Positions 4,202-27,182 of a stretch of DNA of 39,011 bases are shown here, one piece after another. The DNA is from Oscillospiraceae bacterium. Its GTDB lineage: Bacteria > Bacillota > Clostridia > Saccharofermentanales > Fastidiosipilaceae. Position 1 is the first letter of the stretch. Every line of letters begins with the position of its first letter. The notes under the pieces are model-generated. The model did no database searches. It was not told the origin of the DNA and saw only the letters and a program-made list of their open reading frames with translations. The stretch covers positions 45,445 to 84,455 of the forward strand of contig JAQWFM010000001.1 in the NCBI GenBank assembly GCA_028704415.1, in the 5' to 3' direction. The position numbers were made by a program, and so were the translations under genes.

Positions 4202-7750
<3,549 letters not shown>

Positions 7751-7779
7751 TTATCTTAACAAAGGCCAAGATGATTTGC

Positions 7780-7829
7780 GGCCAGATACTGGCCACGTTT
7801 GAGTATATCACATTAAGCATTAATGCGAA
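7780..7829 (-). promoter_or_regulatory. PFOR promoter with two operator-like inverted repeats
   Basis: On the minus strand, TTCGCA (7824-7829) is followed after 16 bases by TATACT (7802-7807), which also carries an upstream TG at the extended -10 position. An inverted repeat, CATTAA-gca-TTAATG (7811-7825), fills the spacer. A second, GGCCAG-ata-CTGGCC in top-strand order (7780-7794), lies just downstream of the expected start near 7795. Both positions suit a repressor. I could not match either to a known operator such as Rex. Confidence 0.45.
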
Positions 7830-7948
7830 CGTCCTGACATGTGGCCAGCGCAACCGGCAACGTCATCTTTTTCTCTGTCGTATCAGACTTAAAGGCATCT
7901 CGAGCGCGACCAGTCTGCGGGGACAAGAACCGCGCCCAGACGTCAGGT

Positions 7949-9910
7949 TCAGGCTTCTTCTATAAAGGCATTGGCGATAACGGCAAAGTCGTCGCTCTTC
8001 AGGGAAGCGCCGCCCACCAGTCCACCATCAATGTCGGTTTGCGAGAACAAATCAGCCGCGTTTTTAGCGTTGACCGAGCCGCCGTACAGGATGCGCAATT
8101 CATCCGCGCTGGTTTGGTCATAAAGCTCAGCCACTACGCCGCGGATATATGCGCAGACTTCCTCCGCCTGCTCATCACTGGCGGTGCGGCCGGTGCCGAT
8201 GGCCCAGATAGGCTCATAGGCAATCGTGACCAGGAAGAGTTTGTTCTGCGGAATGTCCTTGAAAGCGGCGACAATCTGAGATTTGACAAAATCAAAGGTT
8301 TCGCCATTTTCACGCTGCTCCAGCGTTTCACCGCAGCAGATGATGGGGCGCACACCCCAGTTGAGCAGGGCCAGGGCCTTTTGGTTAACGGTTGCGTCCG
8401 TCTCCGCAAAGTACTGACGGCGCTCGCTGTGGCCAATGATGCAGTAAGGAACCGCCATATGCGCCAGCATAGCCGCGGAGACCTCACCGGTATACGCGCC
8501 TTTATCCTCATAATGGCAGTTTTCAGCCGCGATCTTGATGTTGGTGAAAGCCGTGGCCTCCAACGCCGCCTGTAAAGCGGTAAACGGAACGCCCAGCGCT
8601 ACGGTGGCGTCAGCGTCCTTAACCTTGGGCTGCAGCTCGGTCAGGAACCTGGCAGCCTCAGCCGGCACACCCTTGTTCATCTTCCAGTTGCCGGCGGCAA
8701 AGATACGCCGGGGATTTTTATCCAGCAGGCAGTCAATACCGGGCAGGACCTTACCCTCAAGGAATTCCAGGGAAGCGCCGCCGCCGGTCGAAATATGCGT
8801 CACCTGATCCGCAAAGCCCAGGTGTTCAATCGCGGCCGCGGAATCGCCGCCGCCGATGATAGAAACCGCCTGGGATTCCGCCACCGCCCGGGCTACTTCC
8901 CGCGTGCCTGTGGCAAACTTTTCAAACTCAAACACGCCCATGGGGCCGTTCCAGACAATGGTGCCCGCGTGACGGACGGCAGCGGCAAACTGCTCAATTG
9001 ATTTGGGGCCAATATCCAGGCCCATCCAGCCATCCGGAACCTGGCCCGCTTCCACGACCTTACTGTCAGCATCTGCTGCAAAGTGGTCCGCAATCACGGT
9101 ATCCGCCGGCAGCAAGACCTTCACACCCTTTTGCCCGGCTTTTTCCAGCAAAGCTTTGGCAAGCTCCAGCTTATCTTCTTCACACAGGGAATCGCCGATG
9201 CTTAAGCCCTGGGCCTTAAAGAAGGTATAAGCCATACCGCCGCCGATTATCAGGGTATCGACTTTATCGATCAGATTTTCAATCACGCCAATCTTGTCCG
9301 ACACCTTGGCGCCGCCTAAGATGGCCACAAACGGGCGCTTGGGATTCTGCAGGGCCCGGCCCATCACCTCAATTTCCTTTTGAATCAGGAAGCCTGACAC
9401 CCCCGGCAGATAGTTAGCGATGCCGGCGGTTGAGGCATGAGCCCGGTGGGCGGTCCCAAAGGCGTCATTGACAAATACATCCGCCAGGGAAGCCAGCTCT
9501 TTGGCAAACTCCGGCGCGTTTTTGGTCTCTTCTTTATGGAAGCGGACATTCTCCAGCATCAGGATTTCACCGGGCTTTAAGGCCGCGGCTTTAGCCTTGG
9601 CATCCGGGCCAATGACATCTGCCGCCAGCTCCACCGGCTGACCCAGCAGCTGGCTCAGACGCACCGCCGCCGGCTTCATGCTGAATTTAGCCTCAGGTCC
9701 GTTTTTAGGCCGGCCCAAATGAGAAACCAGGATCACGCGGGCACCCTGCGTGACCAGATACTTAATGGTGGGAAGCGCGCCGCGGATCCGCTTGTCATCC
9801 GTGATCTCACCGGTGTCTTTATCCAAAGGAACGTTGAAATCTACGCGCGCGATCACGCGTTTGCCCTTCAGATCAATGTCCTCTACGGTCTTTTTCAGCA
9901 ACTTAGCCAT
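7949..9910 (-). CDS. pgk-tpi: Fused phosphoglycerate kinase / triosephosphate isomerase
   Basis: One 653-residue chain carries two consecutive glycolytic enzymes. Residues 1 to about 398 are a full phosphoglycerate kinase, with RVDFNVPL near the start, [22 protein letters not shown] and the GGGDSAAA nucleotide-binding block. From about residue 402 onward lies a full triosephosphate isomerase: the catalytic Lys in GNWKMN, the His in IGHSERR and the Glu in [11 protein letters not shown]. The linker is only a few residues (LLDKNPRR). The same fusion order is known from Thermotoga maritima, with nearly the same length. No stop, start-like break or frameshift is visible at the joint. AGGAGAGG precedes the ATG. 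No gapA lies in the window. Confidence 0.96.
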
Positions 9911-9952
9911 GTGTTACCTCTCCTGTACGTCAAAAGTAATAAAACAAAAAAC

Positions 9953-9981
9953 ATGATAAAACGGACTTGTTGATGGGGCAA
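9953..9981 (-). promoter_or_regulatory. Candidate promoter of pgk-tpi
   Basis: TTGCCC (9976-9981) and TATCAT (9953-9958) are 17 bases apart on the minus strand. An inverted repeat GACTTG...CAAGTC (9964-9969 with 9979-9984) overlaps the -35 and spacer and could be an operator. Confidence 0.5.
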
Positions 9982-9984
9982 GTC

Positions 9985-10302
9985 TCGATACAGCTATATT
10001 TTAGCACAAAGCTCCGGCGCGAGAAGCCGCCTGGCCGTTTAATTTAATAATTCATTACATAATGAATACAAATTGGCGCCAGCCCGGCGCCTGCGAAGCC
10101 TCCGGTAGAGCGGGCAGACCAGACCGACCCTAAGCCAGTCCGGATTGGCGGCCGGCTGCAGCAGTGAATTTGGTATAATAAAGCCAGTTACCTCAAGTCC
10201 GGACCCCGGCCGCGCGGCCGGGATGCATGGTCTGGTTTTGGTCTTGATGCCGCAAGCCAGGCCGCAGTGAGCCGGGATGAATTGGAGGAGCGTGATTGAG
10301 TC
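9985..10302. other. Divergent intergenic region, mostly without recognised features
   Basis: The stretch between pgk-tpi and the plus-strand membrane protein gene holds the pgk-tpi leader and promoter on the left and an extended -10 element on the right. Between them is GC-rich sequence with no open frame I would support, including a short palindromic CCCGGCCGCGCGGCCGGG around 10205-10222. I see no RNA gene there. Confidence 0.4.
10171..10179 (+). promoter_or_regulatory. Extended -10 promoter for the 10.3-kb membrane protein
   Basis: TGGTATAAT forms a consensus extended -10 (TGn then TATAAT). No matching -35 is seen, as is common for extended -10 promoters. The gene's ATG lies about 120 bases downstream, behind a GGAGGAG ribosome binding site. 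Confidence 0.5.
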
Positions 10303-10974
10303 ATGACTTTACTGACGGATATAAATGAAATAATAGATAAAATGAAGCAAACCTATGCCAGCTGGCCCCGGCAGCTGGCCCTCCTGGTGACCCTGGTCGC
10401 GGGTCTGGCCCTGTTGCTCTGGGGTTACAGGTTGTTCAGAGTCTGGCTGACTGCCTTTGGTTTGCTGTGCGGTTATTATGCCGGTCAGTATATGGGGCAA
10501 AAAGCTGAACTTGAGGGCTGGCCTGCTTTGGCGATTACGGTCCTGCTGGCCCTGGCCGGCGCCATTTTGTTTTGGCTGGCCATAAAATTGAGCGTGTTTC
10601 TGGCGGCTTTCTTTTTGGGGCTTTATTTTATGCGCTATTTTTCAGTTTCCCTGTTTGGCTACAGCAACCTCTGGGTATATCTGGCCGCAGCCTTAACCAT
10701 AGCCATCCTGGCGGTATTTTTCCTGCGGTTCTTTATTATTGCCGCCACGGCCTGGAGCGGCGCCAGACTAATCGTAGACAGTCTGTACGGGCTGATTGCG
10801 GGGGCGCCCGCCGGCAGCTGGCTTAAGTATGCGGCGCCGCTGCGGCAGCTTTATCCCACGCTGCTGTTTGTGCTGCTGCTCGTCCTGATCGCCATGGGTT
10901 TTATCTACCAATACCACCGCAGTGGTCACGGCCGCCGGATCAGGCTGCATGGGTATCCGCTGCGGTCCCGCTAG
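10303..10974 (+). CDS. Multi-pass membrane protein of unknown function
   Basis: The 223-residue product has about six or seven hydrophobic segments, beginning near residues 22-42 and continuing with Gly/Ala/Leu-rich helices at about 45-60, 72-90, 92-112, 120-150 and 185-208. The C-terminus is short and basic (RSGHGRRIRL), which fits a cytoplasmic end. The layout resembles TMEM198/DUF4203-like membrane proteins, but I see no motif that fixes the family. GGAGGAG lies 12 bases before the ATG. The gene ends two bases from the stop of the convergent minus-strand gene, leaving no room for a terminator between them. Confidence 0.8.
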   Translation: MTLLTDINEIIDKMKQTYASWPRQLALLVTLVAGLALLLWGYRLFRVWLTAFGLLCGYYAGQYMGQKAELEGWPALAITVLLALAGAILFWLAIKLSVFLAAFFLGLYFMRYFSVSLFGYSNLWVYLAAALTIAILAVFFLRFFIIAATAWSGARLIVDSLYGLIAGAPAGSWLKYAAPLRQLYPTLLFVLLLVLIAMGFIYQYHRSGHGRRIRLHGYPLRSR

Positions 10975-12530: not shown

Positions 12531-13940
12531 TCAGTCCTCGCCCAGACTGACAGCCGCGGAGAAAACCGCCGCTGCCACCGGCGCGGCTTTTTCCGCCGCA
12601 AAAGTGGTGTCTTCGCAGACGACCGCAATGGCCAGCGGATAGGTCGTGTCGTCTAAAAAGCCTATAAAGATAGCATTATTGCCTTCCTGGTTTTCCAGTT
12701 CAGGCGTACCAGTCTTGCCGCCGACCTGATAGCCTGCTACCGCCGCATTGGCGCCTCCGCCGTTTTCAACCTCATCAATCATTAAAGCTTTCATTTCTCC
12801 GGCCAGCTCACTGCTCAGGGGCGTATAAAGGGTGCTGCTCTCCATTTCCATATAATTTTGATCCAGCGGGTTACTGAGGTAGCTGACAATGTGCGGCTGA
12901 GGCATGGCTCCGTTGTTAGCGATGGCGGCGGCGATCAGCGCCATGTGCAGCGGCGACAGCGTGAGCTCAGATTCGCCGACCGGCTGGCCGATGCTGACCC
13001 AGGATAAGACCCCGTCATCGTCAGCCGGAATGCTGATTTTCGAGCCGGTCACCTGCAGACGGTCTAGTGTCAGCGGTTGGTTAAAACCAAAGGCTTCAGC
13101 CATGTCAATTAATTGTTCGGCTCCGATGTCAATCCCAACCGTGCCAAAAAAGGCGTTACAGGACACGTTAAAGGCCTGGCTCAGGTCAACCTCACCGTGG
13201 CCATCGCCGTCTGATTCCATGACGCCGTTAGGGACAATGGGCGTTGCCCCCTGGCAAAGGACCGTCAGGTCCGGATCATAGCTGGCAGAGCTTAACCAGG
13301 CTGAAGCCGTGATGGTTTTGAAGGCCGAACCCGGAAAATAAGCGCCGGACAACGCCCGGTTGAACAAGCCGGTATCGACCAGATTGGTGTAGTTGACAAT
13401 ATCATCCATAGTCATGGCCGGTTTACTGACGGAAGCCAAAACCGCCCCGGTTGAGTAATTCAGTAAAACCACTGAGCCGTTGAGATCCCCCAGCGCTTCG
13501 TAGGCCGCCTTCTCCAGCCGGCTATCCAGGGTCAGGTACACATCATCACCTTCCAGGCCTTTGCCGGAGATATCAAACAGCAACTGGTAAAGGGGATTGC
13601 GTTCCGTACCGGTCAGATACCCCTGATAGAGCGTTTCAATGGTATTGGAAATATTATGGGTATAGTCGCCTACCAGCTGACTTGCGGCCATCGCCAGTTC
13701 TTCATCCTCGGAATAGACGCGCTCGCCATCCACGCTTTGAGCCAGCACCTCACCATCAGCCGTATATATGGAACCGGCCTGGGCATAACGCGATTTTAAG
13801 GCAGACTTATTCTCCCCAACCGCAGCTTGCAGGGAATGAATGCTCCGGGTTTGCTGAACCACAATGCCGGCCAGCAAAGCTACGGTCAAAACCGAAAAAA
13901 TAATCAGGATGACCTTCAGATTACGCAGTAACTGTTTCAT
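12531..13940 (-). CDS. Class B penicillin-binding protein (peptidoglycan transpeptidase, PbpA-like)
   Basis: The enzyme crosslinks peptidoglycan outside the membrane. The 469-residue protein has one N-terminal anchor (about residues 8-28). A short region follows, and then a transpeptidase domain with the three active-site motifs: SxxK at Ser205-Lys208 (PGSAFK), SxN at Ser260-Asn262 (SCN) and KTG at Lys409-Gly411 (GGKTGTPE). It lacks a long PBP dimerisation domain, like the PbpA group that pairs with RodA/FtsW in actinobacteria and clostridia. It lies 46 bases downstream of the FHA-RodA gene, so the two probably form a polymerase/transpeptidase pair. An AGAGG ribosome binding site lies seven bases before the ATG. 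Confidence 0.93.
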   Translation of the reverse strand: MKQLLRNLKVILIIFSVLTVALLAGIVVQQTRSIHSLQAAVGENKSALKSRYAQAGSIYTADGEVLAQSVDGERVYSEDEELAMAASQLVGDYTHNISNTIETLYQGYLTGTERNPLYQLLFDISGKGLEGDDVYLTLDSRLEKAAYEALGDLNGSVVLLNYSTGAVLASVSKPAMTMDDIVNYTNLVDTGLFNRALSGAYFPGSAFKTITASAWLSSASYDPDLTVLCQGATPIVPNGVMESDGDGHGEVDLSQAFNVSCNAFFGTVGIDIGAEQLIDMAEAFGFNQPLTLDRLQVTGSKISIPADDDGVLSWVSIGQPVGESELTLSPLHMALIAAAIANNGAMPQPHIVSYLSNPLDQNYMEMESSTLYTPLSSELAGEMKALMIDEVENGGGANAAVAGYQVGGKTGTPELENQEGNNAIFIGFLDDTTYPLAIAVVCEDTTFAAEKAAPVAAAVFSAAVSLGED

Positions 13941-22806: not shown

Positions 22807-22836
22807 ATTATAGCACGCCTATATTTAAAAATACAA
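22807..22836 (-). promoter_or_regulatory. Promoter of the ribU transcript, overlapping the hydG stop
   Basis: On the minus strand TTGTAT (22831-22836) and a perfect TATAAT (22807-22812) are 18 bases apart, and TGC before the TATAAT makes an extended -10. The predicted start near 22800 lies just before the RFN element. The -35 lies within the last codons of hydG, so ribU has its own promoter despite the tight spacing. Confidence 0.7.
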
Positions 22837-24231
22837 GTCTCTTTCGCCCGCCTTCAGCCGGTTTAGTTTTTGCGTCAGCGCCTGACGGATGCGGAGATTT
22901 TCAAGGGCCGCGCTTTCTTTGGCCAGCAGGGACTCGCCCAGTTGTCTGAGCCTTGGATCGCCGTAATCCAGCAGGTATTCCTGCAGGGTCAGCAGCGCGT
23001 TAGGCGTGCAGACATTGTGGATCACGCCGGCTTTTGCCAGCTGCATAAAGCGGTCTCCGGTCCGCCCCTGCCGGTAGCAGGCGGTGCAGTAGCTGGGGAT
23101 GTAGCCTTGTTCCAGCAAAGCTGTGATCATCTGATCCGGCCGCCGCTCATCCGACAGTTCAAATTGGCCGCCGGCCGGCCGCCGCGGCTGCTCCGCTTCC
23201 TTTTTGTAGCCGCCGATATCCGTGTTGGAGCCGGCTGAGACCTGGGAGATCCCGCGGCTGAGCAAGCGGTCGCGCATGGCGGCGCTTTCCCTGGTGGACA
23301 TGATGATGCCGGTGTAAGGGACTGCCAGCCTGATAATGGCGACCAGACGTTCAAAGGTCCGGTCATCCACCAGGTGAGGAAAGTCTGCCAGTTCCATGCC
23401 TGTGGCCGGCCGCAGCCGGGGCATGGAGATGGTGTGAAACCCCGCGCCATAAGTGCGGTCCAGATAATTGTTGTGCAGCATCAGACCCAGCACTTCAAAC
23501 TCCGGATCAGCCAGGCCAAACAAGACGCCCGCGCCGACATCATCAATCCCGGCCTGCATCGCCCGGTCAAAGGCGGTCAGATGGTAATTGTAGTCACTTT
23601 TACGGCAGCTGGGGTGCATAGCGGCATAAGTGGGCTGATGATAGGTTTCCTGAAACAGAATATAAGTGCCGATCCCTTTTTCGTGCAGCAGGCGGTACTC
23701 CTCAACCGTAGTAGCCGCAATATTGACATTGACCCGGCGGATGCTGCCGTTATCAAGCTTAGTGCTGTAAATCGCGTCAAGACAGCCTAAGATATATTGG
23801 ATATCACAGTGCTGCGGATCTTCGCCGGCCTCCAGAGCCAGCCGTTTATGGCCCATCCGTTCCAGGACCCGCACTTCATCCTGAATCTCCTGATAGGTGA
23901 GCCTTCGGCGCGCCAGGCCATTGGACTGCTTAAAGCCGCAGTAGACACAGCGGTTGACGCAGTAGTTTGACACATAAAGCGGCGCAAACAGCACCACCCG
24001 GCGCCCGTAAATTTTAGTTTTCACCGCGCCGGCCGCCGCAAACAGGCGCGCCAGCAGATCAGGCCGCCTAATCTGCAGCAGTAAGGCGATATCCTGGTCA
24101 GATAATTTCACCCCATTGAGTTGATCCGGTATGGCTTCTGCCCGCTTGAGCGCGGCTTCCTGGGCGCTGACCTCAGCCGCGCGGGCTTGCTTAAGCAAGG
24201 TTTCTATATAGGCCTGATTTATTTCCATCAT
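22825..24231 (-). CDS. hydG: [FeFe]-hydrogenase maturase HydG (radical SAM tyrosine lyase)
   Basis: HydG splits tyrosine to supply the CO and cyanide ligands of the hydrogenase H-cluster. The 468-residue protein has the radical SAM cluster motif Cys91-x3-Cys95-x2-Cys98 (CVNRCVYC). Its diagnostic C-terminal motif is Cys382-x2-Cys385-x22-Cys408, which binds the auxiliary cluster and is not found in this form in thiamin ThiH. It overlaps hydE by four bases (ATGA), so the two are translationally coupled. Two consecutive ATG codons are possible starts; I used the first. Its stop codon overlaps the ribU promoter. Confidence 0.96.
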   Translation of the reverse strand: MMEINQAYIETLLKQARAAEVSAQEAALKRAEAIPDQLNGVKLSDQDIALLLQIRRPDLLARLFAAAGAVKTKIYGRRVVLFAPLYVSNYCVNRCVYCGFKQSNGLARRRLTYQEIQDEVRVLERMGHKRLALEAGEDPQHCDIQYILGCLDAIYSTKLDNGSIRRVNVNIAATTVEEYRLLHEKGIGTYILFQETYHQPTYAAMHPSCRKSDYNYHLTAFDRAMQAGIDDVGAGVLFGLADPEFEVLGLMLHNNYLDRTYGAGFHTISMPRLRPATGMELADFPHLVDDRTFERLVAIIRLAVPYTGIIMSTRESAAMRDRLLSRGISQVSAGSNTDIGGYKKEAEQPRRPAGGQFELSDERRPDQMITALLEQGYIPSYCTACYRQGRTGDRFMQLAKAGVIHNVCTPNALLTLQEYLLDYGDPRLRQLGESLLAKESAALENLRIRQALTQKLNRLKAGERDLYF

Positions 24232-25346
24232 AATTTTGTTTCCTCCCAGTCTACCGGATCTCCCCGGCTTGTATCAATGGTAAAGCCTGCGCTTTCTACT
24301 CGCTTTTGCAGGCAGGCACGGCACTCGGCGGCCTCGTCTCCCGTGCAGATTTTGTTATCGTACAACGCATAATCTTTCCGGTACTCTTGCGGCGACAGAT
24401 TAGGCATCAAGACGTTAGCGCCGGCGCTTAAAGCCAGCTCCCGGCCTAAGGGGTGCAGCGTACCGACCGCCGTGGTAGCAGGCAATAACGCCTTGGGGAA
24501 AAGCAGTCGCAGCAAAGAGAGCATCAGCAAGGTTTGCCTCAAGCGGCCGGGTTCAGCCTGGCTCAGCGGTGTATCATGCTGAGGAATAAACGGACCAATG
24601 CCAATCATCTGGGGCTGCAGCTCTTGCAAAAAAAGCAAATCCTGAGCCAGGCAATCGGCGGTCTGTCCCGGGGTGCCCACCATAAAGCCAGAGCCTACTT
24701 GAAAGCCTGCCGCCCGCAGCTCCCGCAGGCAGCTCAGGCGCCGCTGCAGGGTCTGGTCAGCCGGATGCAGACTGGCATAGTGACCGGCGTCCGCGGTTTC
24801 ATGCCGCAGCAGGTAGCGGTCGGCCCCGGCCTGGCGCAGCAGCCGGTAGTCGGCAGCGGACAGTTCGCCCACCGACAGGGTGAGCGCGGCGGCGGGATAA
24901 CGGCGGCGGATTTCCGTGACCAGCCGGGCCAGCCGGGGGGCCGGATAAGCCGGATCTTCCCCGGACTGCAGGACAAACGTGCGGTAGCCCAGCGCGTAAC
25001 CTTGCCGGCAGCAGTCCAGGATCTGAGCCTCACTGAGGCGATAGCGGCGCACGCTGGGGTTAGAGCGGCGGATCCCGCAATAAAAGCAGTCATTTTGGCA
25101 GACATTGCTGAACTCAATCAGGCCGCGCAGATAAACTTTTCGGCCATAGTAGTGCTCCCTCAGCAGGCCTGCTGCCTGCCGCAAAGCCGCTTCGGCTTCC
25201 GGGGTGGCCTGTTCAATCAGCCAGGCCAGCTGAGGGCGATTAAAACGGCGAAGCTGCTGGGACAAGCTTTCGGCCTCCTCAAGGGAGGTCACCGGCTGCC
25301 GCAGCGCGGCCGGGACCTGCAGACTTAAGGTTTCAGGCCGCCTCAT
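24228..25346 (-). CDS. hydE: [FeFe]-hydrogenase maturase HydE (radical SAM)
   Basis: HydE is a radical SAM enzyme needed to build the H-cluster dithiomethylamine bridge. The 372-residue length is typical. The cluster motif is Cys83-x3-Cys87-x2-Cys90 (CQNDCFYC), followed by GIRRSN and the family segments LQSGEDP, GFMVGTPGQT and GIGPFIPQHDTPL. BioB-like and PylB-like radical SAM proteins are related, but the neighbouring hydF and hydG settle the assignment. It overlaps hydF upstream and hydG downstream by four bases each. Confidence 0.96.
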   Translation of the reverse strand: MRRPETLSLQVPAALRQPVTSLEEAESLSQQLRRFNRPQLAWLIEQATPEAEAALRQAAGLLREHYYGRKVYLRGLIEFSNVCQNDCFYCGIRRSNPSVRRYRLSEAQILDCCRQGYALGYRTFVLQSGEDPAYPAPRLARLVTEIRRRYPAAALTLSVGELSAADYRLLRQAGADRYLLRHETADAGHYASLHPADQTLQRRLSCLRELRAAGFQVGSGFMVGTPGQTADCLAQDLLFLQELQPQMIGIGPFIPQHDTPLSQAEPGRLRQTLLMLSLLRLLFPKALLPATTAVGTLHPLGRELALSAGANVLMPNLSPQEYRKDYALYDNKICTGDEAAECRACLQKRVESAGFTIDTSRGDPVDWEETKL

Positions 25347-26593
25347 CGTGCGTCCTCCGCCTGTGGTTGCTCCGCCTCCCGGGAGCAGGACTCGTCCGGG
25401 AGCCAGGCAGATTCAAGCCCCAGGGGCCTAAGCGCCCGGGTCAGCACGCCCGTTGCCCAGGCTATCAGGATGCCGTAGTTAACCACCGCCACACCTTGCT
25501 GCTGCGCCTGCCGCAGCCGCGCCTGCATTTCACCGCGGTTAATCATACAGGCCCCGCAATGCACCACCAAAGCGTAAGGGGTCAGGTCCTGCGGAAAGCC
25601 ATTGCCGGCAGTAAAATCAAACCGGAGATTTAGGCAGCGCTTTTCCTGCAGCCACCGGGGAATTTTGACCCGGCCGATATCGTCCGCCTGGCGATGGTGG
25701 GTGCACGCTTCGGCCACCAGCACCCGGTCGCCGTCCTTCAAACCGTAAGCTGCCTGCCTGATACCTGCCACCAGCTGCGGCAGATCGCCTTTGCAGCGCG
25801 CCATCAGCATAGAAAACGAGGTTAACGGAACAGCTTGAGGCAATAACCGGTCAACCTGAGCAAAGGCCTGAGAGTCTGTAATGGCCAGGGCAGGTGTAGT
25901 TTTGCAGGCCTGCAGCGCCAGCGGGATAGCCGCAGGCTGCACGCAGAGCGCCGGCGCGCCTAAGTCCAGCAGGTCCCGCAAGACGCGCTGCTGAGGTAAA
26001 ATCAACCGGCCTTTAGGCGCGGACTGATCAATCGGGGTGATCAGTAAAACCGTATCGCCGGGTTGCACCAGCCCGTCCAGCAGCCCCGGCTCAACCGACT
26101 CCGGCCGGAGACTGCCCAGCCGCTGCAGCAGTAGCCGGATGCCGTTTTGCTTAAGGCTGGAAACCGCTATGGCCTCAGGCGGAGCCGGCAGGGCCGCCGG
26201 TTGATCGACTTTATGCCAGACTAACAAAGCCGGCAGGCCCCGGCGGTGCAGATCCGCATAAAAGGCCTGTTCCGCCGCATCCAGACCGCGGGCCGCGTCC
26301 GCTACATAAATGGCGATATCACAGCGGGCCAGGACCTCCAGAGTCTTTTGCCGCCGCAGCTGCCCTAATTCACTGTGGTCATCCAGGCCGGCTGTATCAA
26401 TCAGGACACAGGGGCCCAGTGGAAAAAGCTCGATGCTTTTATAAACCGGATCCGTGGTCGTGCCTTCCTGATCAGATACAATCGCTGCGGCCTGACCGCA
26501 CAGGGCATTGATTAAGCTGGATTTACCTGCATTAGTGCGGCCAAAGATGCCTATATGTGTCCGCAAAGACCGCGGCGTCGACGGCGCGGCCAT
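25343..26593 (-). CDS. hydF: [FeFe]-hydrogenase maturation GTPase HydF
   Basis: HydF is the scaffold that assembles the di-iron subcluster and delivers it to the hydrogenase. The 416-residue protein has an N-terminal GTPase domain with GRTNAGKS (18-25) and DTAGLDD. A dimerisation region follows. The C-terminal cluster-binding domain has Cys297 (in CTHH) and His345-Cys346-x2-Cys349 (HCGAC), matching the family CxH...HCxxC pattern. Its ATG overlaps the stop of the TM1266-type gene (TGATG). The C-terminal tail after about residue 395 is acidic and variable. Confidence 0.96.
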   Translation of the reverse strand: MAAPSTPRSLRTHIGIFGRTNAGKSSLINALCGQAAAIVSDQEGTTTDPVYKSIELFPLGPCVLIDTAGLDDHSELGQLRRQKTLEVLARCDIAIYVADAARGLDAAEQAFYADLHRRGLPALLVWHKVDQPAALPAPPEAIAVSSLKQNGIRLLLQRLGSLRPESVEPGLLDGLVQPGDTVLLITPIDQSAPKGRLILPQQRVLRDLLDLGAPALCVQPAAIPLALQACKTTPALAITDSQAFAQVDRLLPQAVPLTSFSMLMARCKGDLPQLVAGIRQAAYGLKDGDRVLVAEACTHHRQADDIGRVKIPRWLQEKRCLNLRFDFTAGNGFPQDLTPYALVVHCGACMINRGEMQARLRQAQQQGVAVVNYGILIAWATGVLTRALRPLGLESAWLPDESCSREAEQPQAEDAR

Positions 26594-26847
26594 CAGGGCA
26601 GCTCCTTTTTGGCCATGGCAGTCTTAACAGTAACATGCTCCAGCCGGCCCAGCAGGCCGGTCAGATGGTTGATCTGGTCCGCGTTGCCAACAACTACCAG
26701 GGCTACGACACCCAACTCTTGCTCAGGCATGGGGATGCCCAGACGGCCGCGGATCATATCCTGAAATTCAGAAATAATGCGGTTAAAGGCTTCCTGGCTG
26801 TAGCGCGGCTCTTCTATAATCGCGCTGATAACGGCTACTCGCTGCAA
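26593..26847 (-). CDS. TM1266-type putative iron-only hydrogenase system regulator
   Basis: The 84-residue protein matches the small ACT/ferredoxin-fold family encoded with [FeFe]-hydrogenase maturation genes: RVAVISAIIEEP at the start, FQDMIRGRLGIP in the middle and GVVALVVVGNADQINHLTGLLGRL at the end. Its biochemical role is unproven. The start is a TTG preceded by AAGGAG with a nine-base gap. It is the first gene of the operon and its stop overlaps the hydF start. The terminator hairpin just upstream suggests that the whole operon is attenuated. Confidence 0.88.
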   Translation of the reverse strand: MQRVAVISAIIEEPRYSQEAFNRIISEFQDMIRGRLGIPMPEQELGVVALVVVGNADQINHLTGLLGRLEHVTVKTAMAKKELP

Positions 26848-27146
26848 AGGTTTGCTCTCCTTGTCCTGGTCAGCGGAAAAAGGCTCTTCCGCCGGGGCGG
26901 AAAAGCCTTACTAAAGTCAGCTGAAAGGAAACCTGGTTTATCCCTTTATCAGGTAAACCGCAGTCAGATCTGTCAGTCCCTCAAACGCGCCGCGCCAAAA
27001 GTCAGACTAACTAAACCGCCCCGGGCTTCCGGATCAGCAAGCAGGCTTTTCCGTCAGGTGATGGCGTCTGTCCCAGCGCGCGATGATCAGGGGCGGGCTG
27101 CTGACAGGTCAGTGCAGATACTGCAGGAGCCGCGCAGGCGCTGAGT
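26848..27146 (-). promoter_or_regulatory. Structured leader of the hydrogenase maturation operon, candidate riboswitch or attenuator
   Basis: The roughly 300 bases between the predicted transcript start and the first gene contain no supported gene. Several stems can form: GUUAGUC with GACUGAC, CUGAC/GUCAG and GGUUUA/UAAACC. A nine-base segment, CCGGGGCGG (minus strand, 27016-27024), is perfectly complementary to CCGCCCCGG (26892-26900), which spans the 5' arm and loop of the terminator. It could therefore act as an antiterminator. I do not recognise any known riboswitch aptamer in it. Confidence 0.5.
26877..26907 (-). terminator. Intrinsic terminator in the hyd operon leader
   Basis: On the minus strand GGCTTTTCCGCC (26896-26907) pairs with GGCGGAAGAGCC (26882-26893), with one G-U pair, followed by five T's (26877-26881). 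It ends about 20 bases before the TM1266-type ribosome binding site. It is about 585 bases from the upstream gene's stop, so it belongs to the hyd leader rather than to that gene. Confidence 0.85.
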
Positions 27147-27152
27147 GCAGTT

Positions 27153-27182
27153 ATTATAAACAGCGGGCTATGCTGCCGTCAA
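27153..27182 (-). promoter_or_regulatory. Promoter of the hydrogenase maturation operon
   Basis: On the minus strand TTGACG (27177-27182) and a perfect TATAAT (27153-27158) are 18 bases apart, close to the sigma-A consensus. The predicted start near 27146 gives a leader of about 300 bases before the TM1266-type gene. Confidence 0.7.

Follow-up and report, generated by a model that had tools for sequence, protein, structure and literature searches.

The [FeFe]-hydrogenase maturation operon carried by the 39,011-nt stretch of DNA analysed here (the window) is preceded by a long leader, and an intrinsic terminator stands at the end of that leader, before any maturation gene has been reached. What such a terminator does in front of a biosynthetic operon is the question raised by this locus. 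A preliminary description, made from sequence alone, had proposed an unrecognised RNA attenuator or riboswitch, and this proposal is supported: the leader contains a hairpin that covaries across relatives, has no match in Rfam, and is followed by a terminator or a Shine-Dalgarno site. It is likely (probability roughly 0.82 for the best explanation as a whole) that the leader belongs to a widespread and hitherto uncatalogued family of cis-regulatory RNAs serving the genes for [FeFe]-hydrogenase (H-cluster) maturation. The evidence is computational, with no expression, binding or probing data.

Organization of the hyd Leader and Operon

The leader and the operon lie on the minus strand of the window. 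The promoter (27182..27153) is composed of a −35 hexamer, TTGACG, at 27182-27177 and a −10 hexamer, TATAAT, at 27158-27153, separated by an 18-nt spacer; it scores 11 of 12 matches and was the sole promoter-like site in the 1.1 kb scanned, where shuffled sequences are expected to give 0.6. The leader RNA (27147..26848) is about 300 nt long and runs from the promoter to the TTG start codon of a TM1266-type gene, its 5′ end near 27147 being inferred from the position of the −10 box. Inspection of the leader sequence by eye revealed no reading frame starting with ATG. The Shine-Dalgarno sequence of the TM1266-type gene, AAGGAG, is recognised in the sequence at 26862..26857, about 14 nt 3′ of the terminator T-run; as this distance is too short for another promoter, hyd transcripts must cross the terminator. 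The promoter, the gene-free leader of about 300 bases and the terminator before the ribosome binding site had all been described previously, and all held.

The operon has the gene order TM1266-type gene, hydF, hydE, hydG. The first gene (26847..26593) begins with TTG and encodes 84 aa matching PF21699 at 80 bits; the structure model of the protein (pLDDT 96.7) has a small NikR-C-terminal/ACT-like fold without a DNA-binding domain, with 2nzc (TM1266) as its best PDB match and NikR C-terminal domains next. It is followed by hydF (26593..25343; PF18133 and PF18128), hydE (25346..24228), which has a radical SAM domain and whose identity is inferred from the operon and not from NCBIfam, and hydG (24231..22825), with radical SAM and BATS domains and a TIGR03955 match above cut-off at this site in its own genome. 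Two neighbours of the operon were also observed. A gene for a 927-aa surface protein with SpaA repeats (30275-27492) lies immediately upstream of the leader on the same strand, and directly downstream of hydG there is a RibU-like ECF S-component gene (22665-22018) preceded by an FMN riboswitch (RF00050, 106.9 bits) at 22793-22661 on the minus strand.

The Terminator and Its Competing Strands

The intrinsic terminator (26909..26877, minus strand) reads AAGGCTTTTCCGC/CCCG/GCGGAAGAGCCTT followed by T's, with the 5′ arm at 26909-26897, the 3′ arm at 26892-26880 and the T-run ending at 26877. It was detected by a fold-based scan at −18.5 kcal/mol and missed by a simple scan. The fold gives a stem of 13 base pairs, including one U-G pair, in place of the 12 reported earlier; the five T's in all were confirmed.

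Two segments of the leader are able to pair with this terminator. The preliminary description had named a 9-nt segment, here strand B (CCGGGGCGG, 27024..27016, minus strand), which lies just 3′ of the core hairpin described below. It is perfectly complementary to CCGCCCCGG (26900..26892), as claimed, and matches of at least 9 nt arose in 18 of 2000 dinucleotide shuffles. A longer match had been missed: strand A (CGGAAAAGCCT, 27053..27043, minus strand), overlapping the 5′ half of the core hairpin, is perfectly complementary over 11 nt to AGGCTTTTCCG (26908..26898), a length that none of 2000 dinucleotide shuffles reached. The pairing of strand A is invariant in a congener, where strand B carries a change (CCAGGGCGG) that breaks its pairing down to 6 pairs. 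The role of main antiterminator given earlier to the 9-nt segment is thus probably wrong, being damaged in the congener and bettered by the 11-nt match; the main antiterminator is likely the segment at 27053-27043, an inference from sequence alone. An attenuator should possess a promoter, a leader and an intrinsic terminator before the first gene, and an alternative pairing that excludes the terminator. Both requirements are met, the latter by the invariant 11-nt strand A and by complementarity to the leader's own terminator across the family.

A Covarying Core Hairpin

TM1266 genes were gathered from relatives and their upstream regions were inspected. An intrinsic terminator lay no more than 120 nt from the start in 57 of 110 TM1266 loci (a few of these loci are duplicates of one place), and the leaders were found to share a two-part motif: CUGA followed by a tetranucleotide and AAG and, beyond a short loop, a second CUGA followed by the complement of that tetranucleotide and RAAG. 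A strict pattern picked out 22 TM1266 leaders at a score of at least 5; no control, whether reversed, reverse-complemented or shuffled, scored as high. With the window and its congener excluded, 11 seed sequences were used to build a covariance model, R1, the seed having been cut to this number after members with a 3-bp P2 helix and locus L213 were misregistered in the first seed alignment. When the whole 39-kb window is scanned with R1 and filters off, the leader core ranks first (E 8.6e-4) with all pairs standard, and it is again the top match in the 2.5-Mb genome. The second-best match in the window, at 12707-12675 on the minus strand (13.6 bits, E 0.29), falls inside the frame of a penicillin-binding-protein-like gene (12531-13940), and the second match in the genome (L241, 19 bits) is also in a coding frame; both are attributed to chance.

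The conserved hairpin, here called the hyd core, occupies 27057..27026 on the minus strand, is present in the minimum free energy fold of the leader, and had gone unrecognised in the preliminary description. It comprises about 32 nt with about 14 conserved bases and in the window reads CUGA-CGGA-AAAGCCUGCUUG-CUGA-UCCG-GAAG. The first strand consists of CUGA (27057-27054), the 5′ side of P2, CGGA (27053-27050), and AAA (27049-27047); in the inner part, AGC (27047-27045) pairs with GCU (27038-27036) around a loop at 27044-27039; and the second strand consists of CUGA (27037-27034), the 3′ side of P2, UCCG (27033-27030), and GAAG (27029-27026). The architecture is that of two facing copies of CUGA-N4-RAAG. 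Their C-G and U-A pairs are followed inward by a purine loop of two by two bases, the variable 4-bp helix, another purine-rich loop, and finally the inner stem with its loop; the whole is pseudo-two-fold symmetric.

The pairing is supported by covariation across the family. In 97 aligned sites (93 distinct), 94% of cells pair, and 156 both-side changes are seen against 43.7 in shuffles; the covariation score is 0.617, compared to 0.163 ± 0.014 for shuffles and 0.03-0.13 when the partner is slid by 1-3 columns. When column pairs were ranked by mutual information with background correction (84 non-redundant sites, 42 columns), the six variable modelled base pairs took ranks 1-6 with z of 8.6-31.6, and the next ranks suggest two unmodelled inner pairs. 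The aligned sites were partly selected for pairing, and the pair counts therefore lean towards structure; this bias is avoided by a test in which anchors were placed by the CUGA and RAAG letters only. In that test 52 of 87 sites show a P2 that is complementary along its whole length, against 11.2 expected (maximum 18 in 1000), and 24 distinct P2 helices are represented. A conserved, covarying, aptamer-like domain across species, as a riboswitch would need, is present.

Conservation of the Leader Within the Genus

Identity between the window and its congener (G001) is 82% over the leader; it is only 36% in the 150 nt that precede the promoter, and stands at 66-71% for third codon positions in hydF and the TM1266-type gene. 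Both promoter hexamers are identical in the congener, with about half of the spacer bases differing; in the terminator, strand A and the block around 27066-27026, either the sequence is unchanged or the pairing is kept. The sole change in the terminator is C to T in the 5′ arm, where pairing is kept as U-G. As P2 is identical in the two genus sequences (n = 2), no covariation is available within the genus. A direct DNA search found no homologues of the whole leader beyond the congener. The next-best DNA match to the leader (G047, 86% over 41 nt) was rejected as lying within the hisD coding sequence, and short matches at L006 and L018 were rejected as having no leader-like context. The preliminary description would have been refuted by a leader without conservation or covariation in relatives, and in this respect the leader passed.

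Genes Behind the Core Across Bacillota

Surveys of the phylum and the class were performed with improved covariance models. Among 398 genomes in the phylum survey, 18 matches were obtained at E ≤ 0.01, 16 of them directly before TM1266, hydE or hydG, with one before an ECF S-component-like gene and one within a coding sequence. The class survey of 391 genomes gave 50 matches, most of which precede TM1266, hydE, hydF or hydG; HydG and HydF identities were confirmed by NCBIfam for nine earlier loci. Survey matches at L284, inside a coding frame, and L329, apparently coding, were set aside as chance.

The genes behind the core also include aspA, which it precedes at L304 and L308, and at L346 the order is core-terminator, aspA, then hydF. 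A place for aspA in the hyd regulon makes functional sense: the dithiomethylamine bridge is supplied with nitrogen by ammonia-lyases, and the gene adjoins hyd genes (PMC11736057). The core is found as well before three or four SsuA/NMT1-type ABC transporter operons that do not adjoin hyd genes (L341, L342, L343 and L330). In three of these loci the transporter operons span 8298-10664 (L341), 7185-9525 (L343) and 5964-8458 (L342); their substrates are unknown.

Several arrangements were observed alongside these. A gene for an ECF S-component-like membrane protein (L345, 4437-4928; L347, 4257-4781) either has two core-like hairpins upstream or is itself located after TM1266. The genome G607 (L273/L288) has a core-terminator leader in front of TM1266 and another, about 450 bases away, in front of a hydG-like gene. 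A purine riboswitch (RF00167) in a Clostridium locus (L066, 1680-1781, minus strand) is unrelated to the core.

Detection of the core is far from universal, with only 29 of 139 HydG-bearing genomes positive at E ≤ 0.01 under strict filters. Many maturation operons are without a detectable core; therefore, the core is not essential and other control exists.

Proposed Mechanism of the Switch

The 94 distinct sites fall into two main versions: at 65 a terminator able to pair with the core lies no more than 200 nt downstream, and at 23 the 3′ strand of the core (RAAAGG) is located at the Shine-Dalgarno of the gene. Of the other six, three or more have a terminator visible by eye. Across the family, the complementarity of the core to the 5′ arm of its own terminator scores 15.75, compared to 13.16 ± 0.33 with the terminators of other leaders, a difference reached in 0 of 2000 permutations. 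For the window leader folded up to the T-run, core plus terminator is at −103.5 kcal/mol versus −99.4 kcal/mol for antiterminator A; before the 3′ arm of the terminator has been transcribed, the antiterminator is preferred (−92.3 versus −82.0 kcal/mol); and at full length the two states are level (−114.4 versus −114.3 kcal/mol, equal within error). The state built on strand B is 9 kcal/mol worse than the core and terminator state. The window leader is predicted by this model to be a poised switch, the energies being approximate.

In the proposed mechanism, a factor reporting the supply of, or demand for, the H-cluster would bind and stabilise the core. When the core is absent, the core strand would pair with the 5′ arm of the terminator as an antiterminator and the genes would be ON; when the core is formed, the terminator would be free to fold and transcription would stop before the first maturation gene, the OFF state. 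In other members of the family the core would bury the Shine-Dalgarno of hydG or TM1266, also giving OFF. Since a single strand serves either to build the core or to permit expression, whether as antiterminator or as free ribosome site, both versions should be OFF once the core has formed. The conservation, the covariation, the gene association, the overlap with terminator or Shine-Dalgarno, and the mutual exclusion in the window are shown by sequence. That core formation is OFF is inferred from the architecture without expression data; that a bound factor drives the switch, with binding giving OFF, is likewise inferred, and the core is its putative binding site in the absence of binding data.

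The Proposed Sensed Factor and Alternative Readings

The preliminary description had left a riboswitch and a protein-dependent attenuator as alternatives, and both remain, being judged nearly equal in likelihood: the core may bind a metabolite, a cofactor precursor or a metal, or it may bind a homodimeric RNA-binding protein, for which TM1266 is the first candidate. In the former reading, which falls a little short of an even chance, the core directly binds a small molecule or metal for feedback shut-off of the maturation genes, with an H-cluster precursor, a tyrosine- or SAM-derived metabolite, or Fe(II) as mere candidates. It is favoured by the presence in the family of both expression platforms typical of riboswitches, and by a regulon that mixes cofactor biosynthesis (hydE, hydF, hydG, aspA) with transport away from hyd genes, as in cofactor riboswitches like Moco (PMC2408646), the transport members being the SsuA/NMT1-type ABC transporters (L341, L343, L342, L330) and the ECF S-component-like gene (L345). 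Against it, the core is small and two-fold symmetric, unlike most aptamers; there is no ligand evidence; and no genome among those examined convincingly has the core without TM1266. A bolder form, which is held tentatively and as no better than its parent reading, is a new riboswitch class whose ligand is a metal, a precursor or an intermediate in H-cluster assembly and which controls the whole maturation regulon of TM1266, hydE, hydF, hydG, aspA and ABC/ECF transporters of unknown substrate; such a class might possibly bind two ligands in its two-fold symmetric hairpin. In the protein reading, for which the odds are again slightly adverse, an RNA-binding homodimer, with TM1266 as the simplest candidate, attaches to the symmetric core and in doing so represses both the operon that encodes it and the other maturation genes. 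The symmetric CUGA-N4-RAAG strands with identical loops flanking the variable helix resemble hairpins bound by dimers, TM1266 is the commonest downstream gene, as autoregulation would have it, and its NikR-C-terminal/ACT-like fold without a DNA-binding domain is that of a sensor. TM1266 is also present in 44 of 47 core-bearing genomes; in one exception, G201, the contig ends inside hydF, where its congener G677 has TM1266 next. However, the association is weak in HydG-bearing genomes (the core is present in 27 of 112 that have TM1266 and in 2 of 27 that lack it, Fisher p 0.066), so that TM1266 presence is only suggestive as a discriminator between the two readings. Further, the median pI of TM1266, 6.6, is not that of a basic protein, and the draft genomes G759 and G508, which are unresolved, show the core without TM1266.

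Two readings that dispense with the proposed family are both very unlikely. The terminator could merely end the upstream SpaA-type surface-protein gene, leaving the leader without regulatory function, and this is suggested by that gene being on the same strand and by the congener, in which no terminator was seen between the surface-protein gene and the hyd promoter. However, the sole good promoter precedes the terminator, conservation covers the leader and promoter but not the region upstream of them, and the same core-terminator layout occurs before hyd genes in unrelated genomes; with no room for a promoter between T-run and Shine-Dalgarno, ownership of the terminator by the upstream gene was rejected. 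Attenuation dependent on a leader peptide or tRNA (ribosome-mediated or T-box), or a divergent known Rfam riboswitch, would suit the layout of leader, antiterminator and terminator as any attenuator does, but neither an ATG-started frame nor an Rfam match was seen in the leader, Rfam T-box models included, and no support was found for leader-peptide or T-box attenuation.

Novelty, Significance and Comparison With Known Systems

No Rfam 15 family matched the leader at the gathering threshold, nothing of bacterial leader type was found in a permissive search, and no family was found at the leaders of 20 related loci; the earlier statement that no known aptamer was recognised therefore held. In the literature searched, no RNA element tied to hydE, hydF, hydG or TM1266 was found, nor any published RNA control of [FeFe]-hydrogenase maturation. 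The main texts of the structured-RNA discovery papers searched contained no hydrogenase element; their supplements and the 2017 224-motif paper were outside the search, and an unnamed earlier listing is possible. The element is a cis-regulatory attenuator RNA in kind and appears to be new as a family, with the reservation that such a listing cannot be excluded.

With the core, H-cluster assembly across Clostridia acquires a regulatory site that is defined and can be tested. The core also connects the maturases with aspA and with transporters, the substrates of which may possibly be, or relate to, H-cluster precursors. For the TM1266 family, described so far merely as a putative regulator, there is now a concrete hypothesis, and the core would offer a practical control point in hydrogen-producing and acetogenic strains.

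In comparing the hyd core to known systems, the Moco/Tuco riboswitch candidate (Regulski et al., 2008; PMC2408646) is similar in being a conserved leader RNA before the genes and transporters of one metal cofactor, with Clostridia among its hosts; however, the hyd core differs in sequence and structure, is unmatched by Rfam, and has as its target the H-cluster of [FeFe]-hydrogenase, with the ligand unknown. The THF-II (folE) riboswitch (PMC6800512) shares a simple architecture before a cofactor biosynthesis gene and has been shown to bind a small molecule, but its genes differ and the hyd leader is not recognised by Rfam scans. The pan motif (Weinberg et al., 2010; PMC2864571) is likewise a simple small stem before vitamin-biosynthesis genes, for which its authors suspected dimeric protein binding; it differs in sequence, in its pantothenate genes, and in its stems, which have bulged A residues and are mostly in tandem. 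The RAT hairpins of LicT, SacY and BglG are near-symmetric hairpins of about 30 nt with two internal loops around a short helix; they are bound by a protein dimer and overlap a terminator arm, and binding turns the genes ON. By analogy, the hyd core may be seen as another near-symmetric hairpin of about 30 nt with two internal loops that acts on an intrinsic terminator, though its sequence and genes differ from those of RAT and its formation should instead free the terminator, giving OFF.
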